From positions 1 to 28,125 of the IMG/VR virus record IMGVR_UViG_3300027906_000107: 28,125 nt of DNA; one strand, written 5' to 3'. Both the position numbers and the translations under genes were made by a program. The notes beneath the pieces are model-generated. The model saw only the letters and a list, made by a program, of their open reading frames with translations, did not search any database and was not told the origin of the DNA. Below, piece by piece: positions 2,812 through 27,533 of this stretch; the first letter of the stretch is position 1, and each line of letters begins with the position of its first letter. The stretch is from a virus.

Positions 2812-3099
2812 ATGGCTAAAGTAACAGAAGTAAATGTTGTTACAGGAAAACAAACAACAAGGGATATGACTGAATCTGAAGAAAAAGCTATTTCGGATGC
2901 AGTTCCTAGCGAATCAGCTCAATTAAGTATATTAAGACATGAAAGAAATATATTATTGAAAGAAACAGATTATATGGGATTATCAGATATAGCTATGTCT
3001 GCGAAATGGAAAACATATCGTCAAGAACTTAGAGATATAACTAAAACATTTAAAAGTATGGAAGACAAAGATTTTAAGTTTCCAACAAAGCCTGAGTAG
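2812..3099 (+). CDS. Tail-assembly-chaperone-like small protein, copy 2
   Basis: A 95-aa protein that is paralogous to the product at 114-389. The ETDYMGLSDI and WKTYRQELRDITKTF segments match the chaperone-like pattern and the C-terminal FKFPTKPE is nearly identical. The N-terminal 35 residues (MAKVTEVNVVTGKQTTRDMTESEEKAI) differ from copy 1, so the variable end may confer fibre specificity. A TAGGAG ribosome site precedes ATG 2812. The position after three consecutive fibre-like genes suggests it serves one of them or the next one. Assignment rests on the motif and the context. Confidence 0.6.
   Translation: MAKVTEVNVVTGKQTTRDMTESEEKAISDAVPSESAQLSILRHERNILLKETDYMGLSDIAMSAKWKTYRQELRDITKTFKSMEDKDFKFPTKPE
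3031..3092 (+). repeat. 62-bp direct repeat, copy 2
   Basis: Matches 318-379 at 60 of 62 bases, same orientation, about 2.7 kb downstream. It lies in the 3' end of the second chaperone-like gene, so the two copies bracket the fibre genes at 393-2803. Confidence 0.9.
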
Positions 3100-3108
3100 G
3101 AGATTAGT

Positions 3109-5899: not shown

Positions 5900-6316
5900 A
5901 TGAGCAGATTAATAGAGACATTAAGAAGACAAGAAGGTGTTAAGAATACACTATATAAATGCACTTCAGATAAGTGGACAATAGGTGTAGGAAGAAACTT
6001 AGAAGATGTAGGTTTATCTGATGAAGAAATAGACTACCTATTAGAGAACGATATTGAGAGGACAGAAGAATTATTAGACGAATACATGGATTGGTGGAGA
6101 GACTTAGACAGTATAAGACAAGAAGCCATGGTTAACTTTGTATTCAATGTAGGAATAGGTACTGCTCAGAAGTTTAAGAAGGCGATGACTGCATTAGAAG
6201 AACAAGATTACGACACTGCTGCTGATGAAATGATGGACTCAAATTGGAGTAAACAAGTAGGTCAAAGAGCAGTTGAAGTAACCGAAATGATTAGAACAGG
6301 TGAATATCAAGACTGA
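5900..6316 (+). CDS. Endolysin: GH24 (T4-type) lysozyme with Asp-to-Cys substitution
   Basis: A 138-aa muramidase-type enzyme that cleaves peptidoglycan at lysis. Alignment by eye to T4 lysozyme: RRQEGVKNTLYKCT matches the T4 segment RIDEGLRLKIYKDT, giving catalytic Glu12 (T4 Glu11) and Thr27 (T4 Thr26) in WTIGVG. The T4 Asp20 position is Cys21 (codon TGC, 5960-5962). The C-terminal SNWSKQVGQRA...IRTGEY also matches the family (T4 SRWYNQTPNRA...FRTG). There is no signal peptide, so export depends on the holin. It is shorter than T4 lysozyme (164 aa). GAGGGATATATG provides the start. Engineered T4 lysozyme with Cys at position 20 is known to stay active, so the substitution need not inactivate it. 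Confidence 0.85.
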   Translation: MSRLIETLRRQEGVKNTLYKCTSDKWTIGVGRNLEDVGLSDEEIDYLLENDIERTEELLDEYMDWWRDLDSIRQEAMVNFVFNVGIGTAQKFKKAMTALEEQDYDTAADEMMDSNWSKQVGQRAVEVTEMIRTGEYQD

Positions 6317-6320
6317 CATA

Positions 6321-6340
6321 TAACACGACCTTTAAGGGGG
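6321..6340 (+). promoter_or_regulatory. Phage (T7-like RNA polymerase) promoter candidate upstream of ribonucleotide reductase
   Basis: TAACACGACCTTTAAGGGGG. It matches 15 of 20 positions, without gaps, with the element at 17466. TAACACGAC differs in one base from the T7 consensus TAATACGAC, and a G-run stands where T7 initiates with GGG, though two bases closer. It lies in the only gap of the lysis-RNR region, 31 nt before the RNR start. Two copies only, so the consensus is provisional. Predicted start is near G6336-6337. Confidence 0.7.
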
Positions 6341-6362: not shown

Positions 6363-6370
6363 AGTAAAAT

Positions 6371-8113
6371 ATGTTAAGAAATAGATTGTACGAAGGTCCA
6401 GATATGCCGATCTCAAAGGAAATAGATGAGATGAAATATCGTCAGAAAGGTGAATCATTTGATGAAAAGATAAAAAGAATAGCTCACACTTTAAGTGATA
6501 ATGATGAGCATAAATTTAACCTAGAAGATGTTTTAGGTAATATGAGATTCCTTCCAGCAGGTAGAGTTCAATCAGCAATAGGCTCGAATAGAATTACTAC
6601 TGCTTATAATTGTTTTGTATCTGGTGAAATAGAAGATAGCATGGATTGTATCATGCAAAGGGCTGGAGAAGCAGCAGAGACTATGCGTAGAGGAGGAGGA
6701 ATTGGATACGACTTTAGTAAACTTAGACCAAGGGGTGATACTATTAAGTCTCTTGACAGTAAGTCTAGTGGTCCTATTTCATTTATGCAGGTCTTTGATG
6801 CTATATGTCAAACCATCGCTTCTAGTGGTCATAGACGAGGAGCACAAATGGGTGTACTTAGAGTTGACCACCCTGATATATTGGATTTTATTCGTGCTAA
6901 ACGTAATAATGATAAGCTCACTGGTTTTAATGTATCAGTCGGAATTACAGATGCCTTTATGGAAGCTTTGGACAATGATACTGACTACGATCTTTACTTT
7001 AATGGTGATCATCGTGGCACTCTGTCGGCTAGAGAAGTTTGGGATGAGATAATGCAATCCACTTGGGATTGGGCAGAACCTGGAGTTTTATTTATTGATA
7101 GAATTAAAGAGATGAATAACCTATGGTATTGTGAAGAGATCAACGCAACTAATCCTTGTGGTGAACAACCTTTGCCAGCTTATGGTGCTTGTCTTCTTGG
7201 ATCATTTAATCTGACTAAGTACTTGGAAACAAAGGGAAAATCTTGTTCATTTGATTTTAATCAATTCAAAAAAGATATACCTGAAGTTGTAAGAGCTATG
7301 GATAATGTCGTTGATAGAACTATTTATCCTCTGAAGGCTCAAGAAGATGAAGCCAAGAATAAAAGAAGAATGGGTCTAGGTGTTACAGGTCTGGCTAATG
7401 CTGGAGAAATACTTGGATATCCATATGCTTCAAAAGAATTTATGACATGGGCAGAAAAGGTCTTTGCTTGCTTAAGAGACCATTGTTATAAAGCATCTGC
7501 CATGTTAGCTAAAGAAAAAGGTGAGTTCCCACTATTTAGAAAAGAATATCTTAAGTCTAATTATATAAGAGCTTTGCCTGCTTCTATTCAATCGCTTATA
7601 AGACAGCATGGAATTCGTAATAGTCATCTGACTTCTATTGCTCCTACTGGAACTATAAGTATTATAGCAGATAATGTTAGTGGAGGAATTGAACCTGTAT
7701 TTAATCACCATTTTGACAGAACTATACAAACATTTGAAGGACCAAAAGTTGAGTCCGTAAAAGATTATGCCTACTCAAAGGGAGTGGAAGGTCGTACTGC
7801 CAATGATATTAAAGTTACAGAGCATTTAGAGGTATTATTACTTGCTCAACATTATATTGACAGTGCTTGTTCTAAAACTTGTAATGTAGGAGATGATGTC
7901 TCTTATGAAGACTTTAAAAAGGTTTATGTTGATGCCTGGAAAGGTGGTGCGAAGGGTTGCACAACATTCAGGATTAGTGGTAAGCGATTCGGAATCTTTA
8001 ACGAAACCATGGAAGAAGAAAAGAAGGATACAGATGAGATTAAGGAAACTGAAGAAGAAAAAGTAGAAGCTTGTTTCATTGATCCACAGACAGGTGTACG
8101 AGAGTGTGCTTAA
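6371..8113 (+). CDS. nrdJ: Ribonucleotide reductase, class II (adenosylcobalamin-dependent)
   Basis: A 580-aa enzyme converting ribonucleotides to deoxyribonucleotides for phage DNA synthesis. Seen motifs: Cys81 in AYNCFVSG (first redox Cys), Asn261-Pro-Cys263-Gly-Glu265 (radical-site triad), Cys274 in YGACLLGSFNL (second redox Cys), SIAPTGTIS at 422-430, and C-terminal Cys568 and Cys579 (last but one residue), suited to reduction by thioredoxin or glutaredoxin. RGAQMGVLRVDHPDI (156-170) and the NPCGEQPLP form are typical of B12-dependent NrdJ. There is no ATP-cone domain at the N-terminus and no radical-subunit (NrdB) gene alongside, both consistent with class II. Start ATG 6371 follows AAAGGAG. 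It lies between endolysin and tail genes behind a private promoter candidate. The host or its environment must supply cobalamin. Confidence 0.92.
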   Translation: MLRNRLYEGPDMPISKEIDEMKYRQKGESFDEKIKRIAHTLSDNDEHKFNLEDVLGNMRFLPAGRVQSAIGSNRITTAYNCFVSGEIEDSMDCIMQRAGEAAETMRRGGGIGYDFSKLRPRGDTIKSLDSKSSGPISFMQVFDAICQTIASSGHRRGAQMGVLRVDHPDILDFIRAKRNNDKLTGFNVSVGITDAFMEALDNDTDYDLYFNGDHRGTLSAREVWDEIMQSTWDWAEPGVLFIDRIKEMNNLWYCEEINATNPCGEQPLPAYGACLLGSFNLTKYLETKGKSCSFDFNQFKKDIPEVVRAMDNVVDRTIYPLKAQEDEAKNKRRMGLGVTGLANAGEILGYPYASKEFMTWAEKVFACLRDHCYKASAMLAKEKGEFPLFRKEYLKSNYIRALPASIQSLIRQHGIRNSHLTSIAPTGTISIIADNVSGGIEPVFNHHFDRTIQTFEGPKVESVKDYAYSKGVEGRTANDIKVTEHLEVLLLAQHYIDSACSKTCNVGDDVSYEDFKKVYVDAWKGGAKGCTTFRISGKRFGIFNETMEEEKKDTDEIKETEEEKVEACFIDPQTGVRECA

Positions 8114-11100: not shown

Positions 11101-11677
11101 AGCAACTACAGCCACAACTATATCAACTACATTTGATATCGTAAGACCTTGGCAAAGTACAGATATTAACCCAAGTAAAATATTTCCTATATTTGCACAA
11201 AGTGGTTATAGTAGTGGAACATTATTTAATAGAATAAGAGTAGCAGATTTAACCTATGAATTTGCTGGAACTGATTATGTCTCTTATTTTGAAAAAGAAC
11301 AAATGAATATCAGTCCTACATTCGACACTGAACAGATTGATAAAATATCTCTGTGGGCAGATGGAGGAACAGTAACAACAGTCGGTGGTGATCCTCAAAG
11401 AGCAACCCTAAGGGTGAGAGCTAGAGGAACTAATTATTCTGGTGAGAATCCTTATCTAACTACTGCTGAAGATAATACACAAACTAATGCCAAGAGAAAT
11501 AAATTAGTTGTGAATGATTTTACAGTTGCATCTTCACATAAAATGGATACTAGAATAAAAGGAAGATTCATTAATTACAGAGTAGATGATGCTAATGCAA
11601 ACAACACTGCTGGAAATGATAAGGCTTGGAATGTATCTGGATTACAGATGACTGTAGCTAAAGGAGGAGTTAAGTAA
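8135..11677 (+). CDS. Tail tubular protein B-like (T7 gp12-type nozzle) with large insertion
   Basis: A 1180-aa virion protein. The N-terminus (PVALAPNIFTDVRNVRFKDN, about 22-41) and residues about 360-500 (VIEYDGKLFVIGRNDIYLF; NHRENEIWICYP; ALIWNYRDNTWTMRD) match the propeller-like core of T7-type tail tubular protein B. The C-terminus (KGRFINYRVDD, then AWNVSGLQMTVAKGG) matches its last strands. T7 gp12 is 794 aa; the excess is an insertion at about 515-1010, rich in Ser/Thr/Gly/Asn, with at least two similar beta modules that each carry an EI-containing helix, a Trp, and a GT..TG-T-G end. These may decorate the tail surface. AAGGGAGAA precedes ATG 8135. The stop overlaps the next start (TAATG). 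Confidence 0.8.
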   Translation: MADNVIDVTEVAKMGVIKDTSPVALAPNIFTDVRNVRFKDNAIRKMEGELLLNDIATDLSNPLSFGEVRYFAVWENPNRQPTGCYYIWVVDLLSNNVTVGQKIYIQDHTGTKRDITPSGLTNGFQFTTTGWQHTLFSGGFAFIINNGLDKPHYILDTPGNTDIANIVLAELPGWDSYYAEQEPISATWETGFRTTFDLGQKVDFALNSIEVTVATAARTAEAGSPAGTNTTNTTTFVPGTLPAYGSLPSVNSTKFQIYTDTSTNTTVLHIGGLVDGNLVKAFIKSRNVVTVTAGVVESFGDLLVAGNLTEKDGSNTVRRLSGVVRTSDVAVAGSIPNNWNPFESGVNTSDEFTLAETSVIKDMKPLQGNMYIFSNDSIHMMKLTGNINLPVAFTSVTDEYGCLTNGGVIEYDGKLFVIGRNDIYLFAGNPGDIQSLADQRVRRYFFDNLNPTYEQQLFTILNHRENEIWICYPTLASLGGECDEALIWNYRDNTWTMRDLNSVTSGDVGPVKGGGTPTATLKITGNSGNFGYTNRGKKEVQRAIVNGYAAKQHRGVKEKQTITVGSFSNFTATGEITLTVNFPDGTNAYSLLNGTYSVTLIRDEIKSLIDNNSSWTTADSSTNAVICTAPAVGPQDAYSITIVSSGTLPTGVTNGSFTVGETRPGLAASTSEDVLVLTPPTNFGTALNVTLTAGSGNSNTFDIDSGVGYSTTPHITPNEIATLVYNAWQAGGNSANQAIWTLANPGGSSPNLDFTAVDRQAVTGTFSYTITQGTTRTGYTGGQTLISNASGSATTEGVTPLFARGTRVTVTLNGGTVVFDKHYGEGPGRILDSTFVKAANDNHFGSVTGYGSTTLANVRNDTNDAAYRALFYDADNPDASKPNGLSVDMTLHTTTNNSGSTNIDLAGTNVLLDILTELNTNGLINITNDSTTDPTTLTITPSQFSSDASYVLTYNPFSGETVAAKAAPSASSIHSATEGNTVAGSTPSQATTATTISTTFDIVRPWQSTDINPSKIFPIFAQSGYSSGTLFNRIRVADLTYEFAGTDYVSYFEKEQMNISPTFDTEQIDKISLWADGGTVTTVGGDPQRATLRVRARGTNYSGENPYLTTAEDNTQTNAKRNKLVVNDFTVASSHKMDTRIKGRFINYRVDDANANNTAGNDKAWNVSGLQMTVAKGGVK

Positions 11678-13779: not shown

Positions 13780-14814
13780 ATGGCAATACCATATCAACCA
13801 TCTTACCAAATACAACCGACACATGGTTTTAGATATGGAGCACAACCTCATGCAAATAATGTAGCTCCAACTTATGAAGTTCCAGCTTATGAAGCTCCTC
13901 CTTCAATCGATTCTTCTCCTACAAAAAATAAAACATTAGATAATAACAAAAGTGTAGTAAGTAACTTTGAAGGTAACGAAGATAGAGATAATAGTGCACT
14001 TTCAAATCAGTTGTCGTTAGATGCAGCACAAAGTGTGCAACCTAGAAATTACGATGCAGAAGAAAAGGGCATATTTAATCAAGGTCAAGTATATAGTCCT
14101 GAATTTTCATTAGGTGCTCTTATGCCTTTAGGAATGGGCAGTGGACCAGTATCCCCTACCACTGGATTTGGAAGTAAGGGTTCAATTAGTGGAAATACAG
14201 GTGGTATATTCGATGAGAAAGGTCGTAGCTATGATTCTATTACTGGTGCTTATAATCCTGAGTTTGCAAATGCAGCTTCATTTAGAAGCTATATGATGAC
14301 TGATCCATTAGGAACTAAAGAGAATCCGTTACCTAATATTCTAGGCGATAGAGATAATGCCTTTAAGTATGAAAGAGATAAAACAGGAAAGAGAACTAAC
14401 ACCTCAGCTTCTGGTTTTGAATTTGCTATGGCGAATAGTCCTTTAAATGAAGGTGGATTAACGGAAGCTGAAAAGAATCTTATAGCTAAGAAGGTAGGTG
14501 TTGATCAGGGTATAGCTGAGAGTTCATTAGAAAACGATGGTCCTACAATAAAGGCTATTAGAGGAGAGGGATATATTGATGGAGTAGCACCTAAAGGTTC
14601 TCAGTTTAGTAGTACAGGAAAATTTTCCACTGAAAAACGAAATCTTAATGATTTAGTAGGTAGCACTACAAATAACTCAAGTTATAATAGTGATGAAGAT
14701 AGTAGTTATGAGACTAGTGGATATTCAAGCAGTATAGATACAGGTGGTTTTAGCAAAGGTGGTCGTGTAGGTTATCTTAGTCAAGGTGGTCTTGTACAGG
14801 CTGGAGGTAAATAA
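13780..14814 (+). CDS. Virion protein candidate, disordered with C-terminal GG motif
   Basis: A 344-aa protein starting MAIPYQPSYQIQPTHGFRYG. Highly hydrophilic and Ser/Asn/Gly/Tyr-rich, with few hydrophobic core segments, suggesting a mostly extended protein. The end (FSKGGRVGYLSQGGLVQAGG) carries the GGxVxxxxxGG motif frequent in phage tape-measure and minor virion proteins. The next gene begins with the motif that normally follows it. GGAG precedes ATG 13780, and GGAGGTAAATAATAATG forms the junction to the next gene. Function not recognised; virion location inferred. Confidence 0.45.
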   Translation: MAIPYQPSYQIQPTHGFRYGAQPHANNVAPTYEVPAYEAPPSIDSSPTKNKTLDNNKSVVSNFEGNEDRDNSALSNQLSLDAAQSVQPRNYDAEEKGIFNQGQVYSPEFSLGALMPLGMGSGPVSPTTGFGSKGSISGNTGGIFDEKGRSYDSITGAYNPEFANAASFRSYMMTDPLGTKENPLPNILGDRDNAFKYERDKTGKRTNTSASGFEFAMANSPLNEGGLTEAEKNLIAKKVGVDQGIAESSLENDGPTIKAIRGEGYIDGVAPKGSQFSSTGKFSTEKRNLNDLVGSTTNNSSYNSDEDSSYETSGYSSSIDTGGFSKGGRVGYLSQGGLVQAGGK

Positions 14815-14816
14815 TA

Positions 14817-17447
14817 ATGTATAGTGATAAATTAAAAAAGTTTATATCAAAAGATAGATGGGGTAACTCATTAACATATGAGTTCGATGTTCCACCTATG
14901 GAAGATGCTATCCCACCAGCATTTCAACCTGGACCTAAAGGAACGGATACAGTTCCAGCATGGTTAACTCCAGGAGAGAATGTTGTTAATGCAGAAGCTT
15001 CTAGAAAGTTTCAGCCAATGATAGATAAGATGAATGAATATGGTAGACAAGTTCAGCAATCACAGGGTGGACCAATTCCTACTTATGAGTCAGATGGGGA
15101 TAAAATAGAAGGTAAGCCAGCAGGTAAAGATATTAGTATGAAAACAGTTACAGATAAGAAAGTTTATGAAACACCTGAAGGGTATAAAATGTCTGAACAA
15201 AGAATTACTGTCGGTGATAATACTCATGGATATGGTCATGTACCTAGTATATATGAGGGTATGATTTATGAGCCTAGAGATGTAAAAAGAATGGTATACG
15301 AGGGAACAGTACCTCCTCCTGATATGAGATTTAATACTCGATCTGAGGCAGACCATTATGCAAAACTTAATAGTCAAAATTTATTAAACTTCAGAGATGA
15401 TGCTGCTTATGCTTATCCTATGTATAATAATACAGGTGGTGTTGTTATTGATGATGCCTTATTAGATGCTCTTATGAAGGTAGAATCAGGTGGAGATGTA
15501 AATGCAGAATCAGAGGCAGGGGCTATTGGTCCATATCAAATTATGGATGCAACAGCACAACAGCCTGGATATGGAGTAACTCCAATAGCATTAGCAGATA
15601 GAACTGATCCTACTAAATCTAGAGAATTTGCTAGACAGTATCTTCAGGGTATCGCAAGAAAACACCCTGAATTTAATAGAGACCAAGTGTTACAAGCCTA
15701 TCATTCAGGTGCTGGTAATGTCCTTAAATCAATAGGTGGTGTAGAAGACCTAGGACCACGAGGTCAAGCTTATGCTGGAAAGGTAAATAATGCTATGAAA
15801 AAAGCTGATAGTGGATGGTCATTCCCTAGTTTTATTTCAACAGCTTCAGCATCTACACTAGATAATGAGAATAAGGAAGTACCTGAAGAAAGTAGTTGGT
15901 TAGATTCAGTAAAGAAAAAGTTTGATGAAACATTTCCTTCAATAGCTAATGATCCTACAATACAAAAAGCAAGAATTAAAACTGAAAGAAAGGAAGCTAA
16001 AGAAGATGCAACTATTGCTAAAAAAGGTACTCTCTTTTTAGACGGATTAGACGATGCTGAAGAAGAATTAAATGAATTTAAAAAAGAAGTAAAGAAAAAG
16101 GGTTTTAATGTAACACAACTTGATGTTGATAAATTAAAAGACTTAACAAAGAAAAGAGATGATCTTAAACTTATCTATGATGAAAAAGCTAAAAAGCTTG
16201 AAGAAGTTAATAAGCCTACTGATTTTGAAAAAGCTGCTAAAGAAAAAATAGATACGATATTAGGTACAAAAGTAGCTAAAGATGTAGTTGAAGCTACAAG
16301 CATAGTAGGGGATGACCCTAGTGGTGGAACTGAAGTTGCTGAGATGGCTAAGCAAGATGAAAATACTTTAATGAATAAAGGATTAGCATTAGGTAAAGAA
16401 GCCTTAAGTACAGTTGGTGGTTGGTTTGAATCAATGTTTAAGGAAATGTTTAGTGGACCTGAGTTAGCTCGTATGGCAGTAATATATGCTGGATCTAGAG
16501 CTATGGGATATAGTCATGGTGGTTCTTTAAATTATTCTATGAAAAATTATCTCACAAGAGTAGATAGTGCTCTCGCCCAGCGAAAGAAGGATGGTGCTAG
16601 TAAAAGGTTTATTGATAATTATGAATCTGGCTCGATTCAAAAGTGGATAGAGTCTGGTGATATGAATGATCTTAAATCTAGAGGAACTAAATCACCTATT
16701 AAAATGAGTGGTAAGGGTTATCTCAGAGGTTATGGACAAGTTACTTTATTTGATAATAAAGACGGAGTTCAATTAGCTCAGGTAGGAGGTAAATATATTG
16801 AAGTATCTAAACTACCAATAGAACAATGGGATGATAAGACTCATGGTGATGTTGCAGTTTCTAATAGATTTAATGACATTGAGAAAAACTTTTTATCTGA
16901 TTTAAATGAAGGATTAGATAAAGATGATGATGAGTTTGTACCAAGAGAACTTACTGGTGCAAGAGTAAATAAAATCTATAGAGATATATTAAGAAGAAAT
17001 GGTGTATCACTAAATGAAGCTCCTCAAACAGAAATAGCAATGCAAGAAGCTATTAAAGATTATTATACTGCTATAAAACAATGGAAGAAAGATGGTAAAC
17101 CTGAAAAAGGAAAACCTCAATCTGTAGAAGCATTTATTAATAGAAAAATATTTACACCACTTACAGGTGTTCCTCAAGCTGCTATTGCTGGTGCTTCTGT
17201 TTCTAACCTTAATAAGCTTTCTAATATGATAAGAGACGATATGGATAATAAAAATCCACAATCTACTAAGTATAGAGAGGAGTTTAAAGATAGTTGGCAA
17301 GCAGTATTAGATGCTTATAGAAAATTACCTAAAGAAGAACAAGACAAATATGTTAGACAAGGAGCAGATACTGAAGGACATACTGCATTTACGCTTTTCT
17401 TTCAAGATAAAGGTATAGATGGTATTGAAGCAATATTAAAAGGCTAA
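14817..17447 (+). CDS. Virion protein with lytic transglycosylase (SLT) domain
   Basis: An 876-aa protein, probably ejected to open the cell wall at infection. Residues 38-76 contain GTDTVPAWLTPGENVVNAEA, a motif common in phage tape-measure/minor virion proteins. Residues about 210-328 are an SLT lytic transglycosylase: catalytic Glu223 in MKVESGG, GAIGPYQIM (235-243) and AYHSGAGNV (294-302). It cleaves the glycan strand between MurNAc and GlcNAc. A charged helical region follows (about 380-470), then FSGPELARMAVIYAGSRAMG (about 543-562) and a helical C-terminus. In T7 the transglycosylase is the N-terminus of the 1318-aa gp16; here it is a separate, earlier gene. Start ATG 14817 lies two bases after the previous stop. 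Confidence 0.8.
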   Translation: MYSDKLKKFISKDRWGNSLTYEFDVPPMEDAIPPAFQPGPKGTDTVPAWLTPGENVVNAEASRKFQPMIDKMNEYGRQVQQSQGGPIPTYESDGDKIEGKPAGKDISMKTVTDKKVYETPEGYKMSEQRITVGDNTHGYGHVPSIYEGMIYEPRDVKRMVYEGTVPPPDMRFNTRSEADHYAKLNSQNLLNFRDDAAYAYPMYNNTGGVVIDDALLDALMKVESGGDVNAESEAGAIGPYQIMDATAQQPGYGVTPIALADRTDPTKSREFARQYLQGIARKHPEFNRDQVLQAYHSGAGNVLKSIGGVEDLGPRGQAYAGKVNNAMKKADSGWSFPSFISTASASTLDNENKEVPEESSWLDSVKKKFDETFPSIANDPTIQKARIKTERKEAKEDATIAKKGTLFLDGLDDAEEELNEFKKEVKKKGFNVTQLDVDKLKDLTKKRDDLKLIYDEKAKKLEEVNKPTDFEKAAKEKIDTILGTKVAKDVVEATSIVGDDPSGGTEVAEMAKQDENTLMNKGLALGKEALSTVGGWFESMFKEMFSGPELARMAVIYAGSRAMGYSHGGSLNYSMKNYLTRVDSALAQRKKDGASKRFIDNYESGSIQKWIESGDMNDLKSRGTKSPIKMSGKGYLRGYGQVTLFDNKDGVQLAQVGGKYIEVSKLPIEQWDDKTHGDVAVSNRFNDIEKNFLSDLNEGLDKDDDEFVPRELTGARVNKIYRDILRRNGVSLNEAPQTEIAMQEAIKDYYTAIKQWKKDGKPEKGKPQSVEAFINRKIFTPLTGVPQAAIAGASVSNLNKLSNMIRDDMDNKNPQSTKYREEFKDSWQAVLDAYRKLPKEEQDKYVRQGADTEGHTAFTLFFQDKGIDGIEAILKG

Positions 17448-17451
17448 ATTG

Positions 17452-17499
17452 ATCCCTAGAGATTCTAACACACCCTTATAGGGGAGAATCCCTAGGGAT
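17452..17499 (+). terminator. Long inverted repeat cradling a phage promoter (terminator or processing hairpin)
   Basis: ATCCCTAGAGATTCT (17452-17466) and AGAATCCCTAGGGAT (17485-17499) are inverted repeats, 14 of 15 bases pairing. The 18-nt loop (17467-17484) is almost exactly the promoter candidate core. Read-through RNA from the transglycosylase operon would fold into this hairpin, followed by an AU-rich run (CTTTATTTAT), so termination or RNase III-type cleavage is possible. RNA started at the promoter would lack the left arm. Confidence 0.65.
17466..17487 (+). promoter_or_regulatory. Phage (T7-like RNA polymerase) promoter candidate upstream of the ejection/RNA polymerase operon
   Basis: The core is TAACACACCCTTATAGGGGA followed by GA. 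TATAGGGGAGA closely resembles the T7 -4 to +6 region (TATAGGGAGA) and TAACAC resembles TAATAC; with one gap it aligns along the whole T7 consensus. It shares TAACAC, CCTT and AGGGG at the same spacing with 6321-6340. It lies in the only gap (17448-17521) between the transglycosylase gene and the nuclease-ejection gene. Predicted start is near G17481. Confidence 0.75.
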
Positions 17500-17521
17500 A
17501 CTTTATTTATAGGAGACTTAA

Positions 17522-20500
17522 ATGGCAGACATAACAACAGATGATGGTAGACAATTTAATCTAATAGATGCCGATACTATTACAGATGGATCTACTAATT
17601 ATCGTATAGAAGGCTATAATGCTCCTGAAGTATCTAAAGTACTTCCTGATGAAGAAAAAGGATTACGATTTATAAGAGGTCAATTAGGTGGTGATGAAAC
17701 TACTAATGCAGTAAAAAGGATTATTGAATCTGGTGGATTTAATAAAATAGAAGATTCAGGCTATACTGATTCCTATGGTCGTAAACGAATAAGAATTAAA
17801 AATGAATTTGGTCAAGACTTAACTAATACCTTATATGAGTCAGGTGCTATTGATATTAATTTATTTACAGATAAAGAGGGAATAGATGCTGTAGATAGAG
17901 GTCGATTACAAAAGGAATTAACTGGTAAAAGAGTACATGAAGAAATAGTTAATGACGAATTAAGTGGTATTAAGACTAAACCAGTTACATTTAAAGATAT
18001 AGCAAGTAACGAAAAAGATTATGCTAATGCAGTAATGGAAGTTGTAGCTGAACAACGAGGTCTTGATTTAACTAATGATGATGATATAAGAAAGGCAATA
18101 GAAATAACTCAATCAGGAGTTTATGATACTCGTAGTGTTCCCTTCGATGGTGTTGCTTTTAGAAAGCTTGATAGAACAGTAGAGAATGTAGCTAAGAATC
18201 AATTTGGTGCTGCGTGGAATCAAGGTTGGCAGGGAATGTCTACTGGTTTAGCAGGCTTTTCCGAATTGTTTGGTGTTGGTTTAGGTAGTGATACAATAAA
18301 AAACTGGGGAGCAGATAAAGTTGATATTGCTAAAAGAGATTTATTAGAATTACCAGAATTAAAGAACATAGACTATAGAGATGTAGATGGTTTATGGGAT
18401 GGTATTCAATTTATGACTAACAACTTAGCTATGTCTGCACCTTATCTTATTACATTAATAGGTGGTACAGCATTAGCTCCATTTACAGGAGGAGCATCTG
18501 CTTATTTGGCATATGGTTCTGTTGGTGGTTCTTATGCAGGTCAGGTTTGGAATGATATTAAAGGTCCAAAAGGTAGACCTGAAGCAGCTGGTTCTTTATT
18601 AGCTGGAATAGGAATGGCTACCCTTGATAGATTAGGTCTTATGGGTATATTAAAGCCTTCTCAAATATTACATAAACAAGGTCGATTAGAAGTAGCTAAA
18701 GAATTAAGAAGATTAAACCCTAAACTGGGTTATAGTGAAGCATTAGACAAAATAAGAGATGCAACCAAAGCAGAATTAAAAGAAGTTATTAAGGGTATAG
18801 GTAACTTTTCAGCAGCACATATAAATAATAGTCAGGTTCTTCGTGGATTACTTAAGGCTTCTGGAAGAGGTTTTGCTGCCGAGAGTATAACTGAAGCAGC
18901 ACAAGAGGGATTAGGTTACTTATCATCTAAAACTATGTCTGAGGGTGGTCTCAAAGAAAACTTTAATCCTAATGAATTTCAAAATCTATTATTACAATCA
19001 GCTGTTGCTGGTGGTTCTCTTGGTTTTGGATTTGGTGGAGCTGGATCGCTAATAGATTATGGTGATAGATTCGCTATGAAGAAAGGTCTTGAGAGAGGTA
19101 AAGTAGATAAGCTTAGCGAAGAAGAGAGGGCTGCTCAGGAACTAGGGTATCAAGGAAAAATAGATGATTTTAAAGAAGAATTAAGATCAGACACAGAAAA
19201 TATTAAACCTTCTTCAGGTGGAAGTAGGACAGCTAATATGGCTAAAGATGGTCAGATATCTGAGGGTGGTATATGGAATAAGATTAAAAATGTACCAACT
19301 TATTTTCCTAGGGTATATAGAGCATCTTCAATGATAGCATATCCTGTTGATTTACTTCGAAGATCAGAATCAGTAAGAAAACTAGCAGCATTAGTTGGTA
19401 TGACTACTGGAAAAATGTATTCAGGAATTGATGTTCAAGGTGCTGAATCTCAAACTAGATCTTATTTAAAAGAAGTTATAAATCCTAAAAGAGTATTTAA
19501 AAGATTTGGGTTAAGAGATAGTGTTAGTAATTCCCAAAAGATATCTGATATGATAAGAAGATATATGAATGGAGATACTGATGGTATGTCAGATAAAGAG
19601 ATATCAGCAATCCAAGCTACAATATTAGAGCTAAATGAATTTTCGGATAAGGAATATCTACTTAAGAATAATACTTATAAATCACAAGGTAAAAATAGAA
19701 AGGACTTAGATAAATTAAGTAATTACTGGTTAACTCATCAGAATTGGGATTGGTCAAAGGTAAGACAAAATAGAACTGAATGGTATTCTTGGATGAGAAA
19801 GCATACAAAGATGGATACAAAAGAATTAGATCAGTTGTATGATAAGATATCTAATAACGAAGATGCTACAGATTTTTCTGTTGTAGAAGGTGTTGAATAC
19901 GTTCCTGGAAAGATTAAAGGTTCTACAGATAATTTATCTTCCCTACCTGGATTTGAAAAATTTGCTAATACTAATATATTACAAAATATGCTTACTCTTG
20001 CAGATCAAACTTCTAAATATGTTGCATATACAGATTACTTTGGAGCTGGAGGTAAATACATTGATAAGCTTTTAGAAGATATGTTAAATAAAGATAACTT
20101 AACTAAAGAAGAAGTTGAGCATGTTGCCTTACATACTAAAAATATTATTGATGCAGGTACAGGTAACTATAAAAGAATTAAGAGCAGGAAGTTAGCTGCA
20201 GTACAAAGGTCAGCTACTTTCTTTGCTACATTAATCGGATTACCTCTTTCAGCTATAAGCTCTTTTCCAGAATTTGTAATGATGATCTATCAGGCAAAAG
20301 ATTTTGCAGAAGTTAGAGCTGGAATATTGAGTAGTATCAAAGAAATGAAATCTATTTTCAAAAAGATAGTTACTATGAAAGTACACCCTGCAATAGCTGA
20401 TGTTCCCTTAGGTAATATCGATACAGAATCACAAGTTAGATTAACCAGAGGTGGCTTATTTAATGATGATGCTGCTATAGCTACACGATATGGGTTAGGC

Positions 20501-21481
20501 GAATCTGATATCAGTAAAGCTTGGTGGCAAAAGCAATTCTTTAAATGGACAGGTATAGCTGGAGTAACACAATTACAAAGAGCAATGGCAGCATCTTTAG
20601 TTACTAATTTTGTTGGAGATAGAATAAAAATATTATCTGCAAAGCCTAAAGGAGTTGATTACAATCAAGATCAATTAGATATTTATAGACAGCTAGTTGG
20701 ACTAGGTGTTGATGTAGATAAACTCATAACCCTCTATCGTAAGTATAATAGTCCTATAATGTTTGATTATTTATTTAATGAAGATATAGTTAGAAAACAA
20801 AATAAGTTAGAGGCTGATGCAGATAGAGACTTAAGAGATATAGAAAATGAAATGAATAATGCAACTTGGCATTTTGTAAATGATAGAATACAAAATCCAC
20901 AAGCATTTAATAGACCTTTATTTTATCAAGATCCACATTTTCAAATGTTTGTACAATTTAATGGATTTATATCTACCTTTACTTCTAATGTTGTTCCTAA
21001 GCTTTGGAATGATTACATTAGGAAAGGTAGTCCACGAATGAAGTATAATACATTTGCATTAATAGTTACTATGATGGCAGTCGGTGGTGCATCTCAATGG
21101 TTAAAAGACTTTATTAAGTTTGGGGGTAGTACTCCTTATTTATCTGATGCACAGTTACTTCAAAGAGCAATACAATCATCTGGTTTATTAGGTACAGGTG
21201 AAAGATTATTACAAGGAGCTTTACCTCTTTATAGAAGTAGAGATGAAAATTTTCTTGATAGACTATTCGGTGAAACAGTAGGTGGTGCTCCAACAATTAG
21301 AGCATTAGGTTCTGGAATAAAAGCAATAGGCTCTTTAGGTGAAGGAGATACTGATAGAGCAGTTGGTCATGCTACTAAACTATTACCTGGAATAGGTCCA
21401 ATAACACCTGTAAGAAATATAATAAATGATGCGATACATGGAAAACCAATAGATCCGTATCCATTTGTAAAGGAGAATTAA
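17522..21481 (+). CDS. Giant ejection-type virion protein with N-terminal SNase-like domain
   Basis: A 1319-aa protein. Residues about 1-125 look like a staphylococcal nuclease (thermonuclease) domain: DADT (16-19), YRIEGYNAPE (27-36) and YGRKRIRI (85-92). By alignment to S. aureus nuclease, Asp18=Asp21, Arg28=Arg35, Glu36=Glu43 and Arg87=Arg87 are kept, while Asp40 is Asn33. The remainder resembles T7 gp16-like ejection proteins in size and in having scattered hydrophobic helices (about 300-340, 896-924, 1174-1195) within a helical chain, suited to forming a trans-envelope channel. AGGAG precedes ATG 17522; it is first in the operon behind the 17466 promoter candidate and is followed one base later by the RNA polymerase-like gene. 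The nuclease could act on host DNA at entry or be purely structural. Confidence 0.7.
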   Translation: MADITTDDGRQFNLIDADTITDGSTNYRIEGYNAPEVSKVLPDEEKGLRFIRGQLGGDETTNAVKRIIESGGFNKIEDSGYTDSYGRKRIRIKNEFGQDLTNTLYESGAIDINLFTDKEGIDAVDRGRLQKELTGKRVHEEIVNDELSGIKTKPVTFKDIASNEKDYANAVMEVVAEQRGLDLTNDDDIRKAIEITQSGVYDTRSVPFDGVAFRKLDRTVENVAKNQFGAAWNQGWQGMSTGLAGFSELFGVGLGSDTIKNWGADKVDIAKRDLLELPELKNIDYRDVDGLWDGIQFMTNNLAMSAPYLITLIGGTALAPFTGGASAYLAYGSVGGSYAGQVWNDIKGPKGRPEAAGSLLAGIGMATLDRLGLMGILKPSQILHKQGRLEVAKELRRLNPKLGYSEALDKIRDATKAELKEVIKGIGNFSAAHINNSQVLRGLLKASGRGFAAESITEAAQEGLGYLSSKTMSEGGLKENFNPNEFQNLLLQSAVAGGSLGFGFGGAGSLIDYGDRFAMKKGLERGKVDKLSEEERAAQELGYQGKIDDFKEELRSDTENIKPSSGGSRTANMAKDGQISEGGIWNKIKNVPTYFPRVYRASSMIAYPVDLLRRSESVRKLAALVGMTTGKMYSGIDVQGAESQTRSYLKEVINPKRVFKRFGLRDSVSNSQKISDMIRRYMNGDTDGMSDKEISAIQATILELNEFSDKEYLLKNNTYKSQGKNRKDLDKLSNYWLTHQNWDWSKVRQNRTEWYSWMRKHTKMDTKELDQLYDKISNNEDATDFSVVEGVEYVPGKIKGSTDNLSSLPGFEKFANTNILQNMLTLADQTSKYVAYTDYFGAGGKYIDKLLEDMLNKDNLTKEEVEHVALHTKNIIDAGTGNYKRIKSRKLAAVQRSATFFATLIGLPLSAISSFPEFVMMIYQAKDFAEVRAGILSSIKEMKSIFKKIVTMKVHPAIADVPLGNIDTESQVRLTRGGLFNDDAAIATRYGLGESDISKAWWQKQFFKWTGIAGVTQLQRAMAASLVTNFVGDRIKILSAKPKGVDYNQDQLDIYRQLVGLGVDVDKLITLYRKYNSPIMFDYLFNEDIVRKQNKLEADADRDLRDIENEMNNATWHFVNDRIQNPQAFNRPLFYQDPHFQMFVQFNGFISTFTSNVVPKLWNDYIRKGSPRMKYNTFALIVTMMAVGGASQWLKDFIKFGGSTPYLSDAQLLQRAIQSSGLLGTGERLLQGALPLYRSRDENFLDRLFGETVGGAPTIRALGSGIKAIGSLGEGDTDRAVGHATKLLPGIGPITPVRNIINDAIHGKPIDPYPFVKEN

Positions 21482-21482
21482 T

Positions 21483-24400
21483 ATGGGAAAATTAACAGCT
21501 AGTAGAGATTTTTATGCTAGGAAACAAGAGCGAATAGCTGATGCACAGAAAAAACTTCAAGGTAAAAAAATAGCTGGTGATACTACTACTACTAGTGGAG
21601 CTACTAATGTAGCCGATGTTGCCGACAACCTCGCTGAAATAAAAATAAAGACACCTACTGAACAAATACAAGATCGAATACCTGTAGTAGAAGAAGGATC
21701 TACTGTACCACTCGGAACATATGAAGGTAGAGCAGAGATATTAGGTAAGATAGGCGAAGAGATTGATCCTGTTGCAACCCAAAAGAAAGCATTAGAATCA
21801 ATAGGAGGAACTACAGTTGTAGAATCAGATGCTAAAGGCACGGATTTATATGGTGATGTTAGTACTGTTCCTGGACAAAAGAAAGTAGACTTATATAAAG
21901 AACAGTTAGCAGATGAAGCTCAAATGAGAATACCTCAAGATGAGCAAAGTGCAAAGCTCCTTGGTGAAATGGTAGATATAATTGCTTCAGAGGATTATGG
22001 AAGAAAACAAACATCAGAAGATGAAGAAACACCTCAGAGTTTATTTGGTGATATGTTAGATTTTGCTGCTAAAACAGTACAAACTGATCAAACAAAATTT
22101 AATTTATTTGGTAAGTTAGTAGATACCAGTACAGCTGGAAGCGAAGTAGATATTAATCCAATGAGTTTCTTACAAAAAAATTCAGATGAAATAAGTTATG
22201 CTCTTAAAGGAGTAGATAAACTTGATATGCTAGAAGATAGATCAGATATTAATTCTGGTATAAGACCTGAAGTAGGTCGTGCTGCCCTTATCGCTACTAT
22301 ATTAGAGTTAACTCATAGATTAAATCAACAAGCATCAGAAACTGATAAAGAGTTAAATGAAAGACAATATGAAAATGCAATGGATAGAATTAATATTGGT
22401 AAAGCTATTGGTTCAAGAATGGAAAGGCTATTATATCCAAGTGCAGATATTGATCCTAATAAACCATATACAGGTGAGAGTGAAGGCTTTGGTTATAAAT
22501 ATAGAACAACAGAAAGAGAAAGATCATTAGTAGGTCAAGCCTTTGCTCAAGGATTTGCTGATAGTCCTAATTTTAGTTTTATGGAATCACATTTTGTTAA
22601 GGCTAAAGGGGAAGATAAAGGTAAATGGACTTTTAGACCAGATAGAAAAGGAGATCAACAGCTATGGGCAATAAGAAGAGCCTTAAGAGATGTTTTAGGT
22701 TTAAAAGATTATACTAAACCTGTCTCTCTTGTACCTACTACTAAGGAAGGAAGACTAATAGGAGAAGGAGCATTTGACCAGAAGCAAATAACTTCTCAGG
22801 TATTACCAAATGAATTACCTCCGATAGCAAAGAAAGCTATCCAAAAGTTAGGTAGAGTAGGTCATACTACATCACCTCATAAGATACTTTTAATGTCAGG
22901 TATGTTAAATTCTAATAACCCTTTCTTGATGAAAGTAAGGAAGGCTGATACTGCTTATTATCAAAAGAAAAAGAAAGAATTCCTAGATGAATATACAGCT
23001 AGAGCAGCAAATGATCCTGATTTTATACCTCAAGAGTTAGGAGACTTTGATACATTTGAACAGGCAGCTAATAAGCAAACCATAGAGATAATGGAAAGAC
23101 ATAAAGAGATGCGACAGTATACTGTGATAGATGCTATAAATAGAATGGATCGTTCTTTCTTTTATGGTTATACTGCGATTAATAATTCTTCTCGACTTAT
23201 GATAACTAATCAAGAGTTAAATTATCAAGCAGATAAGGTAGCTAGATTTTTAGTTGATGGAGCTAAACCAGTTATCTTTAAGAAGAATACTAATTCAGAT
23301 TTAGAAATGTCGTCAGAGGGTTTTATGGGGGTTATTGCGAGGTGTGTAATACCTGAAGCTGGAAAGATGCCACCTGAAAGACAAGTAGCTTTATTATTAC
23401 AGGATTTAAGCGATCCTGCAGGTAGTAAATACTTAAAACTCGGTAGAGAATTACTAGAGTATACTCAAAATAATAGTGGTTATATAGGAGCTGTAAGAGG
23501 TACTAAGCAAGCGAAAGATTACGCAGCTACCTATGAAGGTCTTAGGTCGGTAACTCCTTTAGAGCTTAGTCCAGAGTTAACTGAATACCTTCAAGATATG
23601 GGTAAAGATGAATTCTATTTTGCGATGGATGCATTACACGAATTAGCAAGATGGGATGCCACACCTACTGGGGCTGAATTTAAAACTAGAGTTAAAGCTG
23701 AGGCAGATGGTAATGCCAATGGAGCTACTATATTAGCAACCCAGATGGGTGTTAAAAATATTATGGAAAAAGGAGGAGTATTATATAGTAAAAAGAGAAT
23801 AAAATACTTAGCCCAAGGTCTTTCTCATTCTGAAATAGAAGAAATTGAAAAGGATATTAGAGATGATGTATATACTCATATGCAAGCATTACCTGAAATA
23901 TCTAAAGATCCTAAAAAATGGGATATGATTCTTCAACAAATAAAAAAGGCTGGCAAAGTAAAAGAGTTAATGAAACAGCCTATTATGACTTCTATTTATG
24001 GTAAAGACCCTAGATTTCATAGTGATACTGCAAGAAAATTTATTGTAGATAATCCAGAATATTTTGCTTCATTTGATAGTCAAGCTCAAGCTGAAAAAGA
24101 ACTAACAAAGATGTTAGAACACGCATTAGTAACAGGGTTAGGAGGTGCATTAGAACACGCAGCAATAGCAAAAAGATTAGGAAGAGCATTTAACTTTGCT
24201 AATAGAATAGCAATGGTTGAAGGTCCAAATGGATTTATGAGTCAAGCTGGAGGTTACGAGTATATTGAGGATACTCCAGAGCCAACTGCCTTTGATTTTG
24301 TTATAGAAGGTATGACAGATGAAAATACTGGTCAAATAATAAGACGAAAGATGGATATAACCACTATGCAGAGGGTTGCTAGTGCTCAGGCAAGGGCAGG

Positions 24401-25160
24401 TGGAGTTAAGCTTGATACAGGTTTTAAGAGTATTACTGATAGTGGAAGTAAACTTAGAAATCAAATTGCAGTTAATAGTACTCAAAATATAGATGCCTCT
24501 GTAGCCCAACAAACAACTGTAGATATTCTTACTGAAGATAAAGATGCAACCTTTATGCAGATATATGATGCATTTATGGGTGATGCTGCTTCATTTGGAA
24601 AGATTAGAAAACAAGCTAATAAAAACTTTGACGAAATAAATTCGTCATATGAATTAGTTCAAAAAGAAATTGAATCATTTGAAAGATTAATTAAAGAAAT
24701 AGGTGAAGATGTAGGGAAAAAGAAAGCAAGAGGGGAAATGTATGATATTGGATTGGAAGGTGATTATAGGTCTTTAGGAGACTTTGTATTAAATCCAAGT
24801 AGAATTATTATGAGGGATATGCCTGAGAATACTCCAGCTCAACAAGATGCAAAAGAAAAAGCTTTAAGAGATGTTAAATCTCTAAAATTAAGGGGTATTG
24901 CTAGAGACTTCGGAATTTCTTTACCAGCAGGTAAAAGAGAAGTCCGAGGTAAGGATATGAAGGCATATGATTTTAACGAACAAAAGAAGATATTAATACC
25001 CCCTGATTTATATTTAGAATTTATTAAATACGCATTTAAAGCTTTAAATATTGAAAGTGATTTGAGAAATTTCTTATCCACTATAAGGAAAAGAAAATCT
25101 GATTTATACTTTAATGAAATACTTCCAGAAAAGAGATGGGCTGGTATGCAGTACTCCTAG
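21483..25160 (+). CDS. Second single-subunit RNA polymerase, candidate virion (N4 vRNAP-like) enzyme
   Basis: A 1225-aa protein with single-subunit RNA polymerase motifs in the right order. T/DxxGR-like: NNSSRLMITNQELNYQADKV (567-586), Arg571, aligning with the same region of the phage's other polymerase. Motif A: ADGNANGATILATQMG, Asp742 (T7 Asp537). Motif B: KQPIMTSIYG, Lys831 and Tyr839 (T7 KRSVMTLAYG, Lys631, Tyr639). Motif C: FMQIYDAF, Asp1029 (T7 HDSF, Asp812), with NIDASVAQQTTV upstream matching the pre-motif-C helix; His is replaced by Tyr1028. Residues 1-200 are hydrophilic and probably disordered. The N4 virion polymerase is about 3500 aa with a roughly 1100-aa catalytic core; this protein is close to that core. 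Position at the end of the ejection-protein operon suggests packaging and injection. RNA polymerase fold is well supported by eye; virion location is inferred. Confidence 0.8.
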   Translation: MGKLTASRDFYARKQERIADAQKKLQGKKIAGDTTTTSGATNVADVADNLAEIKIKTPTEQIQDRIPVVEEGSTVPLGTYEGRAEILGKIGEEIDPVATQKKALESIGGTTVVESDAKGTDLYGDVSTVPGQKKVDLYKEQLADEAQMRIPQDEQSAKLLGEMVDIIASEDYGRKQTSEDEETPQSLFGDMLDFAAKTVQTDQTKFNLFGKLVDTSTAGSEVDINPMSFLQKNSDEISYALKGVDKLDMLEDRSDINSGIRPEVGRAALIATILELTHRLNQQASETDKELNERQYENAMDRINIGKAIGSRMERLLYPSADIDPNKPYTGESEGFGYKYRTTERERSLVGQAFAQGFADSPNFSFMESHFVKAKGEDKGKWTFRPDRKGDQQLWAIRRALRDVLGLKDYTKPVSLVPTTKEGRLIGEGAFDQKQITSQVLPNELPPIAKKAIQKLGRVGHTTSPHKILLMSGMLNSNNPFLMKVRKADTAYYQKKKKEFLDEYTARAANDPDFIPQELGDFDTFEQAANKQTIEIMERHKEMRQYTVIDAINRMDRSFFYGYTAINNSSRLMITNQELNYQADKVARFLVDGAKPVIFKKNTNSDLEMSSEGFMGVIARCVIPEAGKMPPERQVALLLQDLSDPAGSKYLKLGRELLEYTQNNSGYIGAVRGTKQAKDYAATYEGLRSVTPLELSPELTEYLQDMGKDEFYFAMDALHELARWDATPTGAEFKTRVKAEADGNANGATILATQMGVKNIMEKGGVLYSKKRIKYLAQGLSHSEIEEIEKDIRDDVYTHMQALPEISKDPKKWDMILQQIKKAGKVKELMKQPIMTSIYGKDPRFHSDTARKFIVDNPEYFASFDSQAQAEKELTKMLEHALVTGLGGALEHAAIAKRLGRAFNFANRIAMVEGPNGFMSQAGGYEYIEDTPEPTAFDFVIEGMTDENTGQIIRRKMDITTMQRVASAQARAGGVKLDTGFKSITDSGSKLRNQIAVNSTQNIDASVAQQTTVDILTEDKDATFMQIYDAFMGDAASFGKIRKQANKNFDEINSSYELVQKEIESFERLIKEIGEDVGKKKARGEMYDIGLEGDYRSLGDFVLNPSRIIMRDMPENTPAQQDAKEKALRDVKSLKLRGIARDFGISLPAGKREVRGKDMKAYDFNEQKKILIPPDLYLEFIKYAFKALNIESDLRNFLSTIRKRKSDLYFNEILPEKRWAGMQYS

Positions 25161-25166
25161 AGTACT
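25150..25166. terminator. Hairpin at convergent gene ends, candidate bidirectional terminator
   Basis: AGTACTC-CTA-GAGTACT is a perfect 7-bp inverted repeat with a 3-nt loop. The stem can be extended by GGGCT (25138-25142) with AGCCC (25167-25171) across a 7-nt bulge. It contains CTAG (25157-25160), which provides the stop codons of both converging genes. No T-tract follows on either side, so an intrinsic terminator is possible but not proven. Confidence 0.5.
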
Positions 25167-25405
25167 AGCCCATTAGCCTTAGCTGCTTGCATAGCTTTAG
25201 ATCTCTGTTTATCAGCCATGTGTCTAGCTTTGCTTTCACTCATGCCTTCTGAAACATATCCAGCCATATTTTGAGCATGAACCATATCTAACATAGCTCT
25301 ATTAAACCCTTCTTTCTCTATTAAATCTTCAGATATACCGAATTCAGTGAATTCAAGGTCTTTAAAGTTTTGTCCTGTCTGTGCTAACCAATTTTTATCT
25401 GCCAT
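25157..25405 (-). CDS. Small hypothetical protein downstream of the RNA polymerase
   Basis: An 82-aa helical, Met/Ala/Lys-rich protein (MADKNWLAQTGQNFKDLEF start; KARHMADKQRSKAMQAAKA near the end). The ribosome site AAGGAGG overlaps the polymerase stop codon (TAAGGAGG on the minus strand), so it is co-transcribed and likely well translated right after the polymerase. Its stop overlaps the stop of the convergent plus-strand gene within CTAG. No family is recognised. By position it could be an early host-takeover or polymerase-modulating protein, which is inference only. Confidence 0.65.
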   Translation of the reverse strand: MADKNWLAQTGQNFKDLEFTEFGISEDLIEKEGFNRAMLDMVHAQNMAGYVSEGMSESKARHMADKQRSKAMQAAKANGLVL

Positions 25406-25415
25406 AGTAACCTCC

Positions 25416-27533
25416 TTAGCAAAAGAAGTAATCCGATTTGGATACTTCGGTTATATTTAATCCTCCTATGAGTGGTTGAACCCCACTATATCCTCTTCCG
25501 AAGGGTATACTCTCATAAAAGTTTTCTTTATCATACATCTCTATGAATACTTCTCTGGCTTTCACCATAAGATCTTCTATATCAGTTGCATGACCATTAA
25601 ATGAATCGTGTACTGCTGCGAAATCATTATCCCATTTAGATACTACCAGAGCTAAGTGAGCAGCATCTTTACTGTGAACGAAGTTAGGACTAATCCCACA
25701 CATAAACCCTCGTCTATCTGGTATATCTGTCTTCTCTCTTATCACATGCTTAAATCTTATCTCACCTTCTGGTGTATTAAATCCATAACAATCTATCTTA
25801 GCAGGTCTAGTTCTGTAACATTCGTATATTACAGGGAAGCCTGATTCTGTCTCCCATTCAATTCCTCTACCTCTATCTGTACCATAAGTACGATACCAAT
25901 TAAGTATCTCTTGATCGGCAAGTCGCTGTAGGTATCGCATAGTATCTAAAGGTCCAGGGCATACATCTTGTATTGCTCGTATAACTTGATGAGCTAACTC
26001 ATCGCAATCCCATGTATTAATATTATAATCACTGGTATAACCATACTGATAACAATCGCTATACATAGACTCAGACATTTTCTTTTGTCCACAGCTATAA
26101 GCTCTAGTCATAGCTCCTCTCTTAGCGATACCCTTCCTTATATGCTTCATTGGTATATTTCTTTCTGCAAACCAATCAGGCATCCTCTCACATACTCTTT
26201 TAGCTACTCTTACATAGAAATCATTTGGTATTTCAGTAGGTATAAGACCAACTAATTCTCCAGTTAACCTATCCTTAGACATAGCACCTAAATGTTGCCA
26301 ACCATTATTAGCACCATCAATAGGCACAGGTAATTGAATCCTGTAATCGTCTTTATCCCTCCAAAACTTAAACCACTCTATACAACAAGCAAGGAAAGCT
26401 ATTTTCTTTTCGGCATCTTCAGATATGATCTTCATCTCACCTAGCTCAAGTATACTATCCATATTCTTTTGAGTCCACATAGCTCTGTCTTCTAGTGTCA
26501 TTTTATCTACAGATATACTATCTAATTCTTCTTTCTCAAGAGCCTCTTTATAATCAGTAGTTACCCATTCAGGTATCTGGTCAATAGGGTATGACTGATT
26601 AAATGAACATGAAGTATGTACTGCTAACCAGAAGTTCGCTGTCTCATCGAAGGGTTTACCTTTGGCGAATAGTAATTGACTACGAGCTATATCAGCACCT
26701 TGAAAGTTAAAGAATGGCTCACTATAGTATAGTCTACCTCTATAGTCTGCATCGACATAGAAACTAAATTCTTTATCTAACCATTTCTCTGCAGCAGCCA
26801 TGACCTCTTTAATCTCTCTATTCTTTGAAGCCTGTCTTTGATACATCTTATCATTCTCTTTCTTATCATCACCATCGTATATTTCATGCTTAACAAACAT
26901 AGCCCAATGATTATTAATAGCTTCATGTACATCTTTATTAACTATAAATCTAGTGGACTGTAAGTTATTAATAGCTTTTACGAATGGCTTATCAAGACAC
27001 TTAAGGAACTTATATTCTTTAGACTTATCCCAAGTCTTAATAATAGGTCTACCATTATTCTGAAACAGAGTAGTTACTAAGGGAATAGGTGTAGCACTGA
27101 TACAGGTAGTCTTACCTGAAAATGCATCTAACTCACCCCATTTATCTGTAGCATGAATTGTAACTGGCTTTCTACTTCTCATATGACCTACTGATATTGT
27201 TATATAACCACACATAACAAAACCTTCAATGACTAAATCACCTACTCTCACATGGTCTCTGAAGTTTACATTATTACTATCCCACCCCTCAACTATATAC
27301 TTGCCTATAGCCATTGAAGCTTGAGTAATAGCTGTCTCGCCTTCTACTTTATTTCGTTTAAAACATCTCTGTATAACTTTTCTTGCATGATTTATTATAT
27401 CATCAATTAAAAAGTCTAGCATATCGACCCCATCGGAGTCAATCATACGCATTAGTTGGAGGTTACGTCTAGGCTTTACACCTAAATCTTCACCTCTTAT
27501 TTTCTCTAGTAAATATTTTCTTATGTCTTGCAT
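25416..27533 (-). CDS. T7-like single-subunit RNA polymerase
   Basis: A 705-aa DNA-directed RNA polymerase that would transcribe phage genes from phage-specific promoters. Motifs: DYRGRLYY with Arg267 (T7 Arg425), motif A PIDGANNGWQHLGAM with Asp406 (T7 Asp537), motif B AKRGAMTRAYSCG with Lys471 and Tyr479 (T7 Lys631, Tyr639), motif C AVHDSF with Asp643 (T7 Asp812). ESGFPVIYECYRTRP (563-577) and the following residues correspond to the promoter specificity loop. The chain ends DYFFC, comparable to the T7 C-terminal FAFA foot. T7 RNAP is 883 aa; about 158 residues are missing before the DxxGR motif, so the N-terminal domain is much reduced, nearer the combined size of the two N4 RNAPII subunits. 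Tyr479 is followed by Ser rather than the usual Gly. AGAGAGGA precedes ATG 27533; a sigma70 promoter lies just upstream. Confidence 0.93.
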   Translation of the reverse strand: MQDIRKYLLEKIRGEDLGVKPRRNLQLMRMIDSDGVDMLDFLIDDIINHARKVIQRCFKRNKVEGETAITQASMAIGKYIVEGWDSNNVNFRDHVRVGDLVIEGFVMCGYITISVGHMRSRKPVTIHATDKWGELDAFSGKTTCISATPIPLVTTLFQNNGRPIIKTWDKSKEYKFLKCLDKPFVKAINNLQSTRFIVNKDVHEAINNHWAMFVKHEIYDGDDKKENDKMYQRQASKNREIKEVMAAAEKWLDKEFSFYVDADYRGRLYYSEPFFNFQGADIARSQLLFAKGKPFDETANFWLAVHTSCSFNQSYPIDQIPEWVTTDYKEALEKEELDSISVDKMTLEDRAMWTQKNMDSILELGEMKIISEDAEKKIAFLACCIEWFKFWRDKDDYRIQLPVPIDGANNGWQHLGAMSKDRLTGELVGLIPTEIPNDFYVRVAKRVCERMPDWFAERNIPMKHIRKGIAKRGAMTRAYSCGQKKMSESMYSDCYQYGYTSDYNINTWDCDELAHQVIRAIQDVCPGPLDTMRYLQRLADQEILNWYRTYGTDRGRGIEWETESGFPVIYECYRTRPAKIDCYGFNTPEGEIRFKHVIREKTDIPDRRGFMCGISPNFVHSKDAAHLALVVSKWDNDFAAVHDSFNGHATDIEDLMVKAREVFIEMYDKENFYESIPFGRGYSGVQPLIGGLNITEVSKSDYFFC

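Follow-up and report, generated by a model that had tools for sequence, protein, structure and literature searches.

Between a block of structural genes and a pair of genes for virion proteins, a T7-type promoter motif sits inside the arms of an inverted repeat (positions 17452–17499), which raises the question of what a stem around a promoter does at such a junction. The stretch analysed here in full, referred to as the window, is a 28-kb phage record of 28,125 nucleotides with open ends, and all coordinates are those of the window. An earlier note on this DNA proposed that transcripts arriving from upstream would carry both arms and fold, and be terminated or cleaved, that transcripts starting at the promoter would carry the right arm only, and that the arrangement might insulate the downstream operon from read-through or, alternatively, expose the promoter by cruciform extrusion. 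Judged from sequence comparison, the element is probably a composite terminator-promoter, which would end the transcript of the ribonucleotide reductase (RNR) and structural genes and begin a new one, encoding an ejection protein and a giant RNA polymerase of virion type.

The gene junction, its hairpin and its promoter

The plus strand of the window carries RNR, tail and internal virion genes, and the minus strand carries genes for a T7-type RNA polymerase and a dCMP deaminase. The gene upstream of the element (14817–17447, plus strand), the last of the first late transcription unit, encodes an 876-aa virion protein with a transglycosylase SLT domain (PF01464, E = 8.3e-15; phrog_2013, phrog_342). 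The second late unit begins with the gene for a 1319-aa virion protein of ejection type (17522–21481, plus strand; phrog_6958, E = 3.2e-25, and alignment), followed by that for a 1225-aa protein (21483–25160, plus strand), which was assigned as a putative giant single-subunit RNA polymerase of virion type because of its PHROGs match (phrog_414, E = 4.7e-8), its conserved motifs (DGNANG, KQPIMTSIYG and IYDAF) and a fold search. A structure model of its residues 560–1130 (mean pLDDT 72.5) gave mitochondrial, T7 and N4 mini-vRNAP polymerases as best fold matches (E = 2e-8 to 1e-5, TM ~0.45), and PDB sequence searches with the protein returned nothing significant. Of the "nuclease/vRNAP operon" named in the earlier note, the polymerase part is thus borne out, and the nuclease part comes down to an SNase-like pattern at the N-terminus of the 1319-aa protein, seen by eye and without a Pfam hit. 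The placement of the 1225-aa polymerase gene resembles that of the N4 vRNAP gene, and the phage has a separate 705-aa T7-type RNA polymerase (25416–27533, minus strand; PF00940, E = 2.5e-52; phrog_414, E = 1.5e-99), a candidate reader of the promoter.

The 74-nt gap between the stop of the upstream gene at 17447 and the start codon at 17522 contains the whole hairpin and the promoter. An inverted-repeat search returned exactly the pairing given in the earlier note, with the left arm ATCCCTAGAGATTCT (17452–17466) and the right arm AGAATCCCTAGGGAT (17485–17499), 18 nt apart, paired at 14 of 15 positions (93% complementary). The loop AACACACCCTTATAGGGG (17467–17484) holds the core of the promoter, and the stem is followed by a T-rich tail, ACTTTATTTAT (17500–17510), and by the ribosome binding site region AGGAGA (17511–17516) ahead of the ATG at 17522. 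RNA folding, which the earlier note had suggested as a check, confirmed that the arms fold (−23.2 kcal/mol, z = −3.75), with one of 200 shuffles folding equally well, and the nested-stem score of the element was 30, whereas 700 other positions in the window averaged 12.0 (sd 2.5) and did not exceed 21; together with the arm permutations described below, these values led us to reject a chance origin. The minus-strand fold of the window element is slightly better than the plus-strand fold. A simple terminator scan, which takes loops of 3–8 nt only, did not list the hairpin, an Rfam search gave no match, and a DNA-level search of the phage collection gave none either.

The promoter motif ACACACCCTTATAGGGGAGA (17468–17487, plus strand) is a 20-mer that occurs once in the window, against 0 expected, and is the sole strong copy there. 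TATA followed by GGGG is the layout of T7-family promoters, and the transcription start was for this reason placed at 17481, which would make the right arm positions ~+5 to +19 of the nested-promoter RNA. The earlier note equated the loop with the promoter core; the core does lie in the loop, and the full promoter is slightly longer, its initially transcribed AGA falling in the right arm. With up to 2 mismatches, the core motif matched 24 of 35 related-phage records, and a reversed control pattern matched nearly none; copies occur on both strands, mostly directly before genes, and include the variants CCCTTATAGGGG, CCCTTTAAGGGG, CCCTTAAAGGGG and CCCTTATACGGGG. A recurrent conserved motif before genes, a TATA-GGG start and genomes with a T7-type RNA polymerase are thus found together, as for T7-family promoters, and on these sequence grounds the ACACACCCTTATAGGGGAGA-type motif is taken to be the promoter of this phage clade, presumably read by one of the two candidate phage polymerases (705 aa or 1225 aa). 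In records spanning both regions, the structural strand has just two clear promoters, the nested one and a copy before the RNR gene (ACGACCTTTAAGGGGG, 6325–6340, plus strand; inferred start 6336) that begins the first late unit.

Conservation of the arms among related phages

Counting the window, 16 contigs carry this element at the equivalent gene junction; they represent 14 distinct elements, and the downstream protein of the relatives carrying it is 46–64% identical. Promoter and arms are kept in all 14 distinct elements, each with a stable RNA hairpin (about −22 to −28 kcal/mol) and nested-stem scores of 25–34.5. Pairing between cognate arms averages −21.9 kcal/mol, compared with −15.5 kcal/mol for arms swapped between phages, and 0 of 100,000 arm permutations matched the cognate total, a count that overstates independence since the 14 elements share ancestry. 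Two-sided changes occur at outer pairs −1, 4, 5, 6, 7 and 8 (for example A-T to T-A at pair 4, G-C to A-T at pair 5 and T-A to A-T at pair −1), and the arms of the distinct elements stay matched across stems of differing length. These compensatory changes, which the earlier note had proposed to look for in related genomes, are direct evidence at the sequence level for conserved pairing of the arms.

Relatives that keep the promoter and lose the arms, which would have counted against the proposal, were also searched for, and relatives at this junction hold both. About 25 further motif copies found across the clade have no such arms (nested-stem score 9.5–19, background mean 12); the arms were for this reason assigned a function separate from that of the promoter, and the idea that they are part of the promoter was rejected. 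At the junction of some more distant relatives (L044, L021 and L030) stands a plain hairpin with a T-tract and no promoter; other distant relatives have neither terminator nor promoter there. Because plain terminators occupy the junction in those three phages, the nested element looks like a terminator with a promoter in its loop.

Termination and cleavage as possible functions of the hairpin

In the proposed mechanism, a polymerase from the RNR promoter (~6336) would cross the structural genes and make RNA with both arms, which would fold a 14-bp hairpin directly before the T-rich stretch, so that much of transcription would stop. A polymerase starting in the loop (~17481) would make RNA with the right arm only, in which the terminator could not fold, and transcription would continue through the genes for the ejection protein and the virion RNA polymerase. 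In this way the element would keep two late units apart and allow their levels to be set independently. A hairpin with a U-rich stretch is a termination site for T7-family polymerases (PMC11347151), and in six of the 14 distinct elements (L015, L017, L028, L004, L006 and L009; the L028 element is identical in L032) a T6–T10 tract stands straight after the right arm (T scores 5.0–6.4). Stem and tract in these six have, by sequence, the textbook anatomy of a canonical intrinsic terminator, and resemble class I intrinsic terminators such as Tphi, in which the T-tract directly follows the stem (PMC11347151). Tphi of T7 and T3, in contrast, is a plain hairpin, and in T3 (Tphi, 22352–22390) the promoter phi11 comes just after it (22395–22417), outside the loop; here the loop is ~15–20 nt long and contains the promoter. 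The conserved promoter and arms, the compensatory changes and the six canonical terminators together lend sequence support to the suggestion that the downstream operon is insulated from read-through.

The strongest competing explanation, above all in the window with its weaker tail, is that the hairpin serves as an RNase III processing site, at which read-through RNA would be cut in the stem, upstream messages would gain a protected 3′ end, and promoter-started RNA would stay uncut. Stem-loops that enclose a T7-family promoter have been recorded before: in the T3 annotation, promoter phi6.5 (17160–17182) lies within stem_loop R6.5 (17135–17206) and phi13 (25457–25479) within stem_loop R13 (25443–25480), and T7 phi6.5 and phi13 have the same geometry. 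The window element shares this arrangement, with a T7-family promoter between stem-loop arms at a gene junction, both arms in read-through RNA and the right arm alone in promoter-started RNA, and stems of the window type, which have a single internal mismatch and a weak T tail, would fit RNase III. The T3 and T7 stem-loops, however, are annotated RNase III recognition sites without a T-tract (T scores 0.2–2.0 for T3 R13, T7 R13 and T7 R6.5), whereas T6–T10 directly follows the stem in six of the 14 elements here, a feature that cleavage does not need; many compensatory changes in the arms also set the present elements apart, and plain terminators occupy this junction in some distant relatives. 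Processing by RNase III is on this evidence a serious but distinctly less probable account of the element, and at the hairpin itself termination is favoured over cleavage by a fair margin.

With a T score of ~2.1, the tail of the window is a weak one by the standard of intrinsic terminators; it belongs to a set of eight elements, the window and seven relatives, whose weak tails read ACTTTATTT or ACCTTATTT (T score 1.5–2.3). A window-like tail, GGGGTATCTTTATTTATA, also follows a strong hairpin at the convergent junction of G010, the strong convergent-junction hairpins in G010 and G011 end in GGGGTATCTTTATTT, and in L030 the plain hairpin occupying this gene junction continues into CTTACTTTATTTTTA, again window-like. 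These sequences suggest that a tail of the window type can still belong to terminators, and termination may work with it as well. Three elements (L003, L007 and L008) have a left flank that is rich in T when read on the minus strand, and their hairpins could serve leftward transcripts.

If termination is the function, the same bases would end one transcript and start the next in a compact, evolutionarily maintained arrangement that stops only RNAs begun elsewhere, an element of ~50 bases both closing one operon and opening another. The layout known from T3, a promoter within an RNase III site, would be extended to a promoter within a terminator, giving a simple rule for finding operon boundaries in uncultured phages and an insulator part that could be taken over directly into circuits built on T7-type polymerases. 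A literature search that covered mainly freely accessible papers, and is therefore weak as evidence of novelty, found no paper describing a promoter in a phage terminator loop.

DNA-level and translational alternatives, and the RNR promoter

The inverted repeat might instead act as DNA, either by cruciform extrusion or as an N4-like hairpin read by the virion RNA polymerase, so that the promoter is exposed or formed. As in N4, whose vRNAP uses hairpin promoters, a virion-type polymerase is encoded just downstream, with a model that matches N4 mini-vRNAP among other single-subunit polymerases, and the promoter core CCCT-TAT-AGGG is itself a small palindrome that most copies keep with other loop bases (CCCTTTAAGGG, CCCTTAAAGGG). 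Unlike at N4 promoters, a hairpin is not found at every copy, as the outer arms are absent elsewhere and the inner palindrome, not strictly kept, is broken in some copies (CCCTTATAGGAAAA, CCCTTATACGGGG); in addition, the T-tracts of the six canonical elements are one-sided and oriented for RNA made on the plus strand. Action as DNA is on these grounds improbable, and the cruciform exposure of the promoter raised in the earlier note is unlikely for the same reasons.

The hairpin might also mask the ribosome binding site of the downstream gene in read-through RNA. Such a design is plausible at the RNR promoter, whose start codon is spanned by a right arm, but at 17452–17499 it is more improbable still and was rejected: the stem stops short of the Shine-Dalgarno sequence, and across 15 loci the computed accessibility of that sequence did not differ consistently between read-through RNA and RNA from the own promoter.

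The RNR promoter (start ~6336) also lies between inverted-repeat arms, TGACATAT (6314–6321) and ATATGTTA (6369–6376), and the layout, with the right arm spanning the start codon of RNR, is kept in most close relatives. The arms are AGCATAT/ATATGCT in G003 (L182) and AGCATAA/TTATGCT in G010 (L171), and are long and AT-rich in G007 (L112) and G004 (L166); two compensatory changes were found among close relatives, and the repeat is broken in L185. With moderate support, this repeat could follow the same start-dependent logic at the level of translation. A tentative generalization is that both late promoters sit between inverted-repeat arms so that the origin of an RNA would decide whether it is silenced or used: read-through RNA would have its RNR start codon hidden at the first site and would be terminated at the second, and RNA from the site's own promoter would escape at either, lacking the left arm.

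Several further features were observed in the window and its relatives. In RNA from the nested promoter, the right arm (17485–17499) of window-type elements can fold by itself into a small 5′ hairpin, AUCCCUAGGGAU (−5 to −9 kcal/mol), which is possibly a 5′ stabiliser. At the convergent junction between the virion and polymerase operons, relatives carry a strong bidirectional terminator of highly similar form, ATACCCCACAAGG...CCTGTGGGGTAT with T-tracts (G010 ~4853, G011 36370–36413, G006 14457–14497, G004 23701–23741 and G007 11368–11407); the window has none, and a small minus-strand ORF (25157–25405) overlaps the end of the operon there. Near the start of the window, a stretch is duplicated (214–389 and 2930–3102) as 64- and 96-nt pieces that are 83–89% identical and lie in two small ORFs.
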